A stretch of DNA of 36,039 nucleotides, taken from the NCBI GenBank assembly GCA_003567955.1, contig PWYF01000189.1, positions 1-36,039 on the forward strand, written 5' to 3'. Origin of the DNA: Thiotrichales bacterium (lineage in GTDB: Bacteria > Pseudomonadota > Gammaproteobacteria > UBA5335 > SLRW01). How positions within the stretch are numbered: the first letter of the stretch is position 1; every line of letters starts with the position of its first letter. Under the pieces are notes generated by a model. The model did no database searches and had not been told where the DNA came from. It saw only the letters and a program-made list of their open reading frames with translations. Below, piece by piece: positions 23,674 to 26,566 of this stretch. The translations under genes and the position numbers were made by a program.

Positions 23674-24792
23674 TTATTCTTCCCCGTCGCGGTCTTCGTC
23701 GCTGATGCTCACCCGCGCACCGTCGGAGAGAAAATGCGCGCCGGCCACGGCAATGGTTTCGCCGGCTTGCACGCCGTCGACAATCTCGATGCGGCCATTG
23801 ATGCGCACGCCGGTTTGCACCTGGCGTTGCAGTGCGCGCTGCTCCTCGATGACGTAGACCACTTGCCCCAACGGGCGGCGGATGACGCTGTTCTCGGGCA
23901 CAGTGAGGGCATTCTCGCGGGTTTCCAGCACCACTGTGCCGGTGACACTGGCGCCCGAGCGCCAGCCGCCCGGGTTGGGGATATTGATTATGGCGTCAAT
24001 GGAGCGACTTGCGGTGCCAATGGTCGGGCGCAATTCCGAGATTTCAGCCGCGTGGGCTTCACCGCCCCCGGCCGGTTGCAGTTCCACTGCCAATCCGGGC
24101 GCCAGACGATGGGCGATGCGTTCAGGATAGGGCAGGGTGATGCGCAGCAGCTCGCCCCCCACAATCCGGTACAGTGGTGTGCCCATGCTGACAAAATCGC
24201 CCTCCGAGACCATGCGCTGTTCAACCACGCCGTCTACAGGGCTTTGAACCCGGGTTTTCTCCAATGCCAGCTGGGCCTCCTCCAGTCGTGCCTGGGTTTC
24301 ACGTAACTGGGCCTGGAGTGATTCCAGCTCCGCCTCGGCGGCATCAAACTGGCTGCGCGAAATTGAATTCTGCGCCAGGAGTTCGCTCAGGCGGCGCACC
24401 GTACGTTCCTGATTGGCAATCATGGCCTTGAGACGGTCGGCGGCGCCATCGGCCTGGCGCACCGCAAAACGCTGGTTGAGATCATCCAGGCGCAGCAGGA
24501 CTTCGTCCTTTTCCACCCGGTCGCCCACATCGCGCACAATTTCCAGCACCCGGCCGCTGGTTTCGGCACTGATGGCCGGCAGGGCACGACTCTGGGTGCG
24601 CCCTACAGTGGTTTCAGTCTCACGCACCGCGCCGCGTTGCACCTCGGCGACGGTGATCAGCGTCGCCGGCTCCTGCGGGCCGTTGTTTTCGCTCTCGTCG
24701 CTGGCGCAGCCAGCAAGCAGGGCCAGCGAAGCCAGCAGGATCAGGCTGCACTGTATATAAACTCGGGCACAGGGTTGACGTAAACGAGTCAT
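23674..24792 (-). CDS. RND efflux periplasmic adaptor (MFP) lipoprotein
   Basis: Lipobox-like LLAGC, HlyD/biotinyl-lipoyl fold with RVEKDEVLLRLDD, coiled-coil hairpin, adjacent to RND gene. Confidence 0.94.
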   Translation of the reverse strand: MTRLRQPCARVYIQCSLILLASLALLAGCASDESENNGPQEPATLITVAEVQRGAVRETETTVGRTQSRALPAISAETSGRVLEIVRDVGDRVEKDEVLLRLDDLNQRFAVRQADGAADRLKAMIANQERTVRRLSELLAQNSISRSQFDAAEAELESLQAQLRETQARLEEAQLALEKTRVQSPVDGVVEQRMVSEGDFVSMGTPLYRIVGGELLRITLPYPERIAHRLAPGLAVELQPAGGGEAHAAEISELRPTIGTASRSIDAIINIPNPGGWRSGASVTGTVVLETRENALTVPENSVIRRPLGQVVYVIEEQRALQRQVQTGVRINGRIEIVDGVQAGETIAVAGAHFLSDGARVSISDEDRDGEE

Positions 24793-25439
24793 GAGGTGGT
24801 TTCCTGGTTGCGGATGCCGTTGAAGAGCAGATCGAGCAGTCTTTCGCTGAACAGCCCGGGGTTATGGGCGAAATCAACCTCGGGGAAATGGCTGAGCCCG
24901 TCCCGGCTGATGGTAAAAAAAACATTCATGCCCACCAGCACAGTGGCCAGCGTGGCCGGATCAAAGTCGGCACGCAGGGTGCCGGTGTGCTGTCCATCAC
25001 GGATGATGCGCACCAGAATGGAGAAATTTTCGGCAAAGCCTTCGCTGGTGAGTAACGAACTTTTCTCGCCCTGCACCGGGTCGAGGGTCTCGCGCATGAT
25101 CAGGCGCGCGGTATCGGCTTCCTGCTGCAGATTGTCCATATGTGCTACAGCGAAGGCCTGAAGACGGGTGAGGGCATCGCTGTCATCATCCATCAGCGAG
25201 ACCAGCATCTCACGCGAAGGGCGTGAGACATGACGCAACACCGCGACGTAGAGTTCATCCTTGTTGCGGAAATGATGAAACACATTGGCCTTGCTGGTGC
25301 CGGCGGCCTCGGCGATGGCGTTGATGGAAACGCCGTTGTAACCATGCCGCGAGAACAGGTCGGCCGCCGCCTGCACGATACGCTCCACGCAGGAATCGTC
25401 CGTCGACGCCGTGGCATGTTGAGGGGCGTGGGTCACCAT
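24789..25439 (-). CDS. TetR/AcrR family regulator (start at MVTHAPQ; upstream ORF extension rejected)
   Basis: HTH ERIVQAAADLFSRHGYNGVSINAIAEAAGTSKANVFHHFRNKDELY; stop overlaps MFP start. Confidence 0.94.
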   Translation of the reverse strand: MVTHAPQHATASTDDSCVERIVQAAADLFSRHGYNGVSINAIAEAAGTSKANVFHHFRNKDELYVAVLRHVSRPSREMLVSLMDDDSDALTRLQAFAVAHMDNLQQEADTARLIMRETLDPVQGEKSSLLTSEGFAENFSILVRIIRDGQHTGTLRADFDPATLATVLVGMNVFFTISRDGLSHFPEVDFAHNPGLFSERLLDLLFNGIRNQETTS

Positions 25440-25465
25440 GAGCCTGTTCCCGAAAAATGACTGAC

Positions 25466-25479
25466 TGACCGGACGGTCA
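25466..25479. promoter_or_regulatory. Candidate TetR operator downstream of a candidate tetR promoter
   Basis: Palindrome TGACC-GGAC-GGTCA; on the - strand TATAGT (25484-25479) directly precedes it. Confidence 0.5.
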
Positions 25480-25502
25480 CTATACCGGAAGGCCTTGAAA
25501 AT

Positions 25503-25911
25503 GCCTACCCGCGCTATCGCGCGGTGTTGTAGGCGGGAAAGCGGGAAGGTGGGAAAGTGAAGAAATTTGGAACCACCGAATACACCGAAGGCACCGAAAA
25601 ACATCAGGTATTTCTCCGTGCCCTCTGTGTGCTCTGTGTGCTCTGTGGTAAAGAATCCAGTATTGCCGGGGTTTCAGGCCATAAGGCCAACCACAGAGCA
25701 CGCAGAGCGCACAGAGTTCACGGAAATAGTTACTACAAAACATTTCGGTGTGTTCGGTGGCTGAATTTGAATTTTCATAGCCGCGTTGGCGGATCCATTT
25801 TTGCGGAACACAGAACACGGTGTTTGCAGTGCCTTCGGTGGTTAAAAATGCCTTTGCTTTCCCACCTTCCCGCTTTCCCGCCTGCAACCCCCGCGCTCCG
25901 CGCGGGATTGC
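25503..25911. repeat. Composite nested palindrome D (8- and 9-bp-period repeats, MITE/REP-like)
   Basis: Perfect 26-bp inverted repeat GGCGGGAAAGCGGGAAGGTGGGAAAG (25532-25557)/CTTTCCCACCTTCCCGCTTTCCCGCC (25857-25882); internal ACCACCGAA-TACACCGAA-GGCACCGAA (25572-25598) and TTCGGTGTG-TTCGGTGGC (25744-25761); CTCTGTGTG x2 + CTCTGTGGT (25623-25649) versus ACCACAGAG-CACGCAGAG-CGCACAGAG (25690-25716); terminal GC hairpins 25509-25524 and 25890-25906. Confidence 0.93.
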
Positions 25912-25942
25912 CTGCCGGTACGGGGTGGATTAGGCTGCGGGC

Positions 25943-26566
25943 ATGAAAGCAGAAGATGATGTGATTGCGCTGGCCATTACCGGGGCGTCGGGGTTGCAGT
26001 ACGGCTTGCGGCTGCTGGAGTGCCTGCTGGCCGAACCGCGCACGGTGTATCTTATGGTTTCAAAACCGGCCCGGGTGGTGGCCGGGCTGGAGATGGACCT
26101 GAACCTGCCCTCGCGGCCGGCGGAACTGGGTCGTGCCCTGCAGGAGTACATCGGCCAGTCAGCCGGTCGACTGGAGATATTCAGCCAGGACCAGTGGACG
26201 GCGCCGGTTGCCAGCGGCTCGGCGAAGGTGCGCGCCATGGTCATTTGTCCCTGCAGTACCTCCACCTTGTCCGCTGTGGCCACCGGTGCCAGCAATTCCC
26301 TGATTGAGCGTGCTGCCGATGTCACACTCAAGGAGGGCCGCAAGCTGGTGATGGTGGTGCGTGAAACGCCTCTGTCGGTGATTCACCTGGAGAACATGCT
26401 GCGTCTGGCTCGCATGGGCGCGGTTATGCTGCCGGCCAACCCCGGGTTTTATCATCGCCCCGATAGTGTGGCGTCGTTGGTCGACTTTGTGGTTGCAAGG
26501 GTGCTGGATCAGCTGGATGTGCCGCACCGGTTGCTGGCCCCATGGGGGCAAAACCCGGAACACTGA
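25943..26566 (+). CDS. ubiX: Flavin prenyltransferase UbiX
   Basis: ALAITGASGLQYGLRLLE, CPCSTSTLSAVATGASNSLIERAADVTLKEGRKLVMVVRETPLSVIHLENMLRLARMGAVMLPANPGFYHRP. Confidence 0.97.
   Translation: MKAEDDVIALAITGASGLQYGLRLLECLLAEPRTVYLMVSKPARVVAGLEMDLNLPSRPAELGRALQEYIGQSAGRLEIFSQDQWTAPVASGSAKVRAMVICPCSTSTLSAVATGASNSLIERAADVTLKEGRKLVMVVRETPLSVIHLENMLRLARMGAVMLPANPGFYHRPDSVASLVDFVVARVLDQLDVPHRLLAPWGQNPEH

Follow-up and report, generated by a model that had tools for sequence, protein, structure and literature searches.

How does a long hairpin assembled from several families of short-period repeats come to lie between two divergent genes, and what kind of DNA is it? The window analysed here, a stretch of 36,039 nucleotides from a Thiotrichales bacterium (contig PWYF01000189.1), carries such a structure at positions 25503-25911. 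We consider it probable that the hairpin consists of nested gene-less copies, or relics, of selfish insertion elements that have arrays as their ends. A complete element would consist of a small GxxExxY gene between two inverted arrays, each of about three 7-nt cores with one to three free bases between them, and gene-less copies would retain the arrays around a short, variable inside. The argument draws on observations that the data support, namely the modular make-up of the repeat, its presence or absence at orthologous sites, the unity of gene and arrays, the agreement of core with protein, and the occurrence of relatives in other phyla.

Architecture of the hairpin

From the outside inwards, the structure consists of a GC hairpin, an octamer array (O, GCGGGAAN octamers), a first nonamer array (A, CACCGAANN nonamers), a second nonamer array (B, CACAGAGNN nonamers) and an apex, so that the module order across 25503-25911 is O>A>B< apex B>A<O<. 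The individual features are as follows.

25502-25506: left TGCCT of a possible target duplication; at five bases it may be a coincidence
25507-25525: left GC hairpin of the O layer; with GTTGTA and octamers it repeats elsewhere in the host, for example at loci L013, L016 and L023
25527-25557, plus strand: O> array, TTGTA and GCGGGAAN octamers; holds the perfect 26-bp inverted repeat
25573-25598, plus strand: A> array, three CACCGAANN nonamers (ACCGAA type); pairs with 25744-25761
25614-25649, minus strand: B< array, CTCTGTGNN nonamers (CTCTGTG type), with CTCTGTGGT at the end
25650-25689: apical stretch, with GGCCATAAGGCC at 25677-25688; kindred apices in the composites L002, L003 and L006
25690-25724, plus strand: B> array, ACCACAGAG-type nonamers (CACAGAG)
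25744-25761, minus strand: A< array, TTCGGTGNN nonamers (TTCGGTG type), with TTCGGTGGC at the end
25803-25820: remnant of a GGAACAC heptamer array, present on the right side alone
25830-25841, minus strand: lone extra TTCGGTGG unit (A type)
25857-25887, minus strand: O< array, complements O> perfectly over 26 bp
25890-25907: right GC hairpin of the O layer
25909-25913: right TGCCT of the possible target duplication, bordering a block upstream of ubiX that genome G002 conserves

Re-reading of the sequence bore out the coordinates and layers of the original prediction, including the perfect 26-bp octamer inverted repeat inside the arms 25527-25557 and 25857-25887 and the joining of different periodic families, here O, A and B, in one inverted structure. 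The very long hairpin that had been proposed agrees with RNA folding, in which 25490-25920 reaches -250.6 kcal/mol, as against -142.7 +/- 6.6 for 100 dinucleotide shuffles, none of which was as low (z = -16.4). The description as a nested palindrome needs amending: the layers are indeed inverted, but the arms are unequal, with about 95 bp on the right that have no counterpart on the left, and several nested gene-less elements describe the structure better. The likeness between the two arms lies mainly in the 7-nt cores. As for the target duplication that was to be sought, TGCCT does flank the hairpin, but it is only five bases long and occurs also at 25830 and 25849.

The A and B arrays of the window fit a common inverted motif, C[AG][CT]NRA[GTA] with a period of 8-10, and the O arrays (GCGGGAAN) do not match this core. 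No match was obtained in the window with Rfam, nor for the 409-bp element against plasmids (blastn). One feature of the hairpin counts against the element reading: its B arrays face outwards, with CTCTGTGGT and ACCACAGAG toward the apex, opposite to the arrangement in gene-bearing units. Outward-facing B arrays are also present at L112, L121, L097 (Chlamydiae) and L210 (host contig C1, 3882-3945), and in the Chlamydiae copies the apex is A/T-rich.

Genomic setting

The hairpin separates a TetR-family gene (24789-25439, minus strand, PF00440), which adjoins the genes of an HlyD-type and an AcrB-type protein, an RND pump pair, from a divergent flavoprotein-family gene (25943-26566, plus strand, PF02441) that we read as ubiX. 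The flanks were compared, through exact shared blocks, with those in genome G002, which belongs to the same family. Two blocks, CCGGACGGTCACTATAC and GTGGATTAGGCTGCG, are both conserved; they lie 50 bp apart in G002 versus 439 in the window, and no array occurs between them in G002. Since the flanks are conserved and the array is not there, the hairpin was either inserted in the host or lost in G002. Directly upstream of ubiX, both genomes keep the sequence TTGCC(T/A)-17 bp-TAGGCT, which reads as a candidate promoter, and by this comparison the insertion (or the loss in G002) would adjoin that block without falling within it.

Copies in the host genome

Blast with the hairpin as query gave 79 matches in this genome. 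The layers were then read in 41 host sequences, made up of the window and 40 stretches (331 kb) most of which were picked for having matches. Here they occur as separate units, with at least nine O>O< clusters, three short A pairs and one B<B> alone, and also in three A>B<B>A< composites besides the window, which is the fullest nest among the 41. The original prediction was to fall if other copies and inverted pairing were absent; both are found in the host, as O pairs, A pairs and composites. The three-unit A pattern occurs 18 times in the host genome (12 forward, 6 reverse), and among 398 genomes of the phylum just one besides the host contained it, with a single match; the composite A+B pattern had no match in the genome contigs searched.

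The commonest period-8 core in the 41 sequences is GCGGGAA. The host stretches also contain a period-9 family (CATGAAGNN), the octamer CACGTAAC, a period-10 family (GTCTTAA) and several heptamers, GTCTAAG and GGAACAC among them. On contig C200 (L002), GTGTTCC is repeated next to a composite copy. A general rule for the arrays seems to be a 7-nt core plus 0-3 free bases.

Two minor observations concern these families. At L013, L016, L019 and L023, octamer arrays often begin with a GC hairpin, seemingly just past a stop codon, followed by GTTGTA and then the octamers; such arrays may be terminators, or may have been inserted at stop codons. Across L190-L229, the families GTCTAAG, GAAAACT and GGAACAC (period 7), CACGTAAC (period 8) and GTCTTAA (period 10) are without a known gene partner.

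The B array across Bacteria and Archaea

The original prediction mentioned similar strings in other bacterial genomes, and the B array does recur, in Archaea as well as Bacteria. The pattern ACCACAGAGNNCACAGAGNNCACAGAG was found in at least 116 stretches, with hosts among the matches listed that include Deltaproteobacteria, Chloroflexi, Bacteroidota, Planctomycetes, Acidobacteria, Chlamydiae, Cyanobacteria, Cloacimonadota, Gammaproteobacteria, Methanosarcinales, ANME-2, Methanoperedens and others. Some single elements have perfect arms (L076, L112), and a B element of B. finegoldii has long perfect arms that fold with z = -12.9. On the other hand, 75 of 160 long B arrays lack an inverted partner at the distances covered, a result that counts against the element reading. 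Around the B. finegoldii element, the same intergenic place could be followed in 20 loci; one has a B pair, three (L496, L497, L504) have arrays of the CGCGGAT/CACGGAT type, and the remainder have unrelated hairpins or none, so that two core types share one site across species. CACAGAG arrays also occur in at least 120 stretches (L351-L470) of contigs called viral. A profile search of the fetched viral-contig stretches gave no GxxExxY gene, and a protein-based scan of viral contigs gave no relative of it; these arrays may be genuine phage copies or may belong to flanking host DNA.

Could the arrays instead be regulatory or terminator hairpins, that is, binding sites or bidirectional terminators selected between genes? 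B arrays do avoid long open frames, with 35 of 141 inside them versus 2353 of 2820 random points, and the Bacteroides pair lies where several relatives have unrelated hairpins just past a stop codon. However, no intrinsic terminator (a stem followed by a T run) was found in 25380-26000, and the window copy is flanked by divergent genes instead of following a 3' end. Moreover, the bases preceding ACC in B arrays are mostly TT(A/C), the last place never being G (0 of 148), so that by symmetry AA, and not a T run, follows the B stem. The same core in Archaea, Bacteroidota, Chlamydiae and others is unexpected for a host-specific binding site, and gene and arrays agree as units (see below). With these points weighed, a regulatory or terminator role for the arrays appears unlikely.

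It is also difficult to see the arrays as satellites, in which tandem repeats grew by replication slippage and an inverted duplication produced the hairpin. The tandem form would fit, as would the equal spacers in some arrays, but in general the cores are kept and the spacers vary: neighbouring spacers are equal in 27 of 157 cases versus 13% expected. Covariation between arms was tested and not found, spacers being equal between arms in 10 of 53 cases versus 14% by shuffling. What is kept is therefore, on the whole, the core and not an exact hairpin. In addition, 141 of 148 B arrays have exactly three units, in a set selected for three or more, and slippage leaves both orientation and gene linkage unexplained. 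We regard slippage as quite improbable.

A GxxExxY gene between inverted arrays

If the arrays are the ends of insertion elements, what gene lies between them? The GxxExxY family (TIGR04256/PF13366, PDDEXK_3), encoded by the host and by related elements, is assigned to the PD-(D/E)XK nuclease family. Its members are predicted nucleases on the strength of the Pfam assignment and of a D...(E/Q)xK pattern, which 110 of the 121 proteins share; we know of no enzyme activity for a GxxExxY protein. A PDB sequence search gave no match, and an AlphaFold2 model built from four sequences had a mean pLDDT of 50.

The host has one TIGR04256 gene, on contig C121 (L230), where it lies between CATGAAG arrays in a unit inserted between genes read as ribD and ribE. 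The gap between ribD and ribE is six bases or fewer in the five order-level relatives with a visible junction. G002 likewise has CATGAAG units and a GxxExxY gene after the end of ribD, with ribE on another contig. Gene-less CATGAAG arrays are scattered through the host and the same-genus genome G001, and most of the five gene-less inverted pairs that were read have ends like AAAGC..TTAACCATGAAG and its mirror. The host assembly, which is 92.7% complete, yielded no GxxExxY gene with A or B ends. With the sole TIGR04256 match of the genome on C121, there is no such gene between the window arrays, and the window copy is therefore classed as a gene-less relic and not as a complete member. In other genomes, a GxxExxY gene lies between inverted B-type arrays in 3 of the 116 B-array stretches listed (L105, with two genes, L116 and L151). 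Among the matches listed, then, most copies are gene-less, which again counts against the element reading.

The association was measured around 121 GxxExxY loci. Of these, 51 were drawn evenly across the host's phylum and 70 came from genomes chosen for B arrays; fragmentary matches were left out. A motif array in the right orientation was present within 400 bp in 86 loci and one in the wrong orientation in 14, and control stretches far away gave 9 of 222; the 35 loci with no exact motif array within 400 bp count against the element reading. In a motif-free test, the two flanks had the same array in inverted orientation at 56 of 121 loci versus 362 of 4000 mismatched pairs. The 51 loci drawn regardless of arrays had a motif array in 34 cases and the same array on both sides in 20, with cores that were mostly CGCAGAG and CACGAAG, not CACAGAG. 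Periods 8, 9 and 10 exceed the control at GxxExxY loci, and period 7 does not. At the level of whole genomes, a period-9 array occurred in 38 of 58 genomes with GxxExxY versus 40 of 241 without it in a draw of 299, counts for which the Fisher test treats related rows as independent. GxxExxY was present in 36 of 40 array-bearing genomes versus 58 of the 299, a comparison of chosen genomes with a draw from another group.

The original prediction knew of no function for such strings; what can now be added is that A- and B-type arrays would be terminal repeats of a GxxExxY-bearing element. In the text available from the open-licence literature, outside which most subscription journals lie, there was no description of arrays flanking GxxExxY, and the array strings appeared there as primers or in unrelated uses only.

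Core type follows protein clade

The final base of the core (G versus T/A) changes 2 times on a tree of the 121 GxxExxY proteins, as against 11 or more in 300 shuffles. Among the 86 labelled loci, a T clade of 34 proteins, named after the tree was viewed with its labels, has 18 T/A cores to 1 G, and the other proteins have 0 T/A to 67 G. This is a quick tree in which 13 of 118 forks are well supported (starred), the T-clade fork being unstarred with an SH-aLRT of 91. In six genomes with both core types, the core agrees with the element's own protein in 7 of 7 and 9 of 10 cases, and host ancestry is therefore not the cause of the match. Relatives with 72-73% identity across phyla were found at L275 (genome recorded as Alcanivorax), L298 (Deltaproteobacteria) and L317 (Cloacimonadota). 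The agreement of core and clade shows that gene and arrays are inherited together, and binding of the array by the protein would be one step beyond it.

The pairing of a small nuclease-family gene with an adjacent short tandem array, and a core that tracks the protein clade, might also suggest a type III toxin-antitoxin-like system in which the array is a repeated RNA that restrains the GxxExxY protein. However, the arrays are on both sides and inverted, copies without the gene number in the dozens, and a GxxExxY unit is inserted between ribD and ribE. Furthermore, the repeats of known type III systems are far longer than the periods of 8-10 nt found here. An RNA antitoxin is accordingly a poor candidate, and we give it little credence.

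How the nest could have formed

We return to array-ended insertion elements as the origin of the hairpin. The first step of such a model is that the arrays would bound a unit that is mobile as a whole, for which the agreement of gene, left array and right array and the empty sites are indirect evidence. Empty sites, which the original prediction suggested looking for in relatives, were found at the window site in G002, between ribD and ribE, and at the Bacteroides site; they support mobility, as judged from presence and absence. We infer that the protein of each element recognises its own array, and such reading would account for the match between core and clade. Copies between genes or inside operons may be tolerated because the inverted arrays would pair in RNA and be cut or ignored, a form of silencing modelled on the handling of 23S rRNA intervening sequences by RNase III. 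Finally, gene-less copies could spread in trans, or could be decayed relics. To give O>A>B<B>A<O<, A elements with an inner B pair would have landed in, or grown within, an O element. Counting the O layer among such elements, alongside A and B, is an assumption; no gene with O-array ends was found.

Relation to known systems

The four-helix-bundle family TIGR02436, which we take to be the S23p family, provides a tie between array-ended elements and the 23S rRNA intervening sequences. Inverted arrays of period 7 were present on the left of 19, on the right of 13 and on both sides of 10 of 30 TIGR02436 genes, versus 4 of 56 far controls, and no other period clearly exceeds the control at these loci. 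The heptamer differs from locus to locus (L513-L542; for example L524, in G002).

The 23S rRNA intervening sequence of Coxiella is taken as the nearest described system, by analogy. According to PMC4990558, the intervening sequences of Coxiella and Leptospira are selfish inserts with a small S23p ORF and terminal inverted repeats that form a 28-bp stem. The ORF of the Coxiella insert has three tandem heptamers ahead of it, and RNase III excises the insert. The window hairpin likewise has terminal inverted repeats that form a long stem. The intervening sequences, however, are described inside 23S rRNA, whereas the window hairpin lies between the TetR and ubiX-like genes, and the elements considered here carry a nuclease-family gene or none, have periods of 8-10 and reach Archaea.

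How far might the likeness extend? We see an even chance that these elements belong to an undescribed, domain-wide selfish class, a one-gene unit with ends made of 7-nt-core arrays with a fixed spacer, in which spacer length plus core would form a code that matches the protein. In that reading, period 7 would correspond to the four-helix-bundle S23p, and periods 8-10 with a core ending in G or in T/A to the two GxxExxY clades. The 23S rRNA intervening sequences would join this larger class as its one known corner, and much of the unexplained short-period intergenic repeat DNA of Bacteria and Archaea would be its gene-less debris. Such a class would give an origin to the CTCTGTGNN/CACAGAGNN-type strings that recur across phyla and a genomic context to the GxxExxY family, and the match of core to protein opens the way to a direct test of binding and cleavage.

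The elements resemble MITEs in being short and gene-less, with inverted ends and many copies. Ends in common with a gene-bearing element are seen for the CATGAAG family of the host and, outside the host, for B arrays; the host yielded no gene copy with A or B ends. They differ from MITEs in that their ends are three-core arrays with free spacers, with no known transposase and no clear target duplication. A MITE containing a minisatellite is reported for Porphyromonas gingivalis (PMC4596501). The cyanobacterial STRR heptamer repeats are likewise described as short-period intergenic arrays.

REPIN-RAYT systems also combine a small enzyme with a crowd of palindromic copies, and both the protein and the sequence differ from those found here. 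That the hairpin copies are REP/REPIN-like elements moved by a RAYT (Y1) transposase is the least credible of the alternatives: the host has two Y1_Tnp genes and the copies are palindromic, intergenic and many, but the host Y1_Tnp genes have no array nearby and have their own GTGCGGTC hairpins instead, and Y1_Tnp occurs in only 3 of 9 genomes searched, the host included. At G000:C219 (L070, L073), two adjacent RAYT-like Y1 genes are accompanied by GTGCGGTC...GACCGCAC hairpins, a REP-like family unrelated to the arrays.
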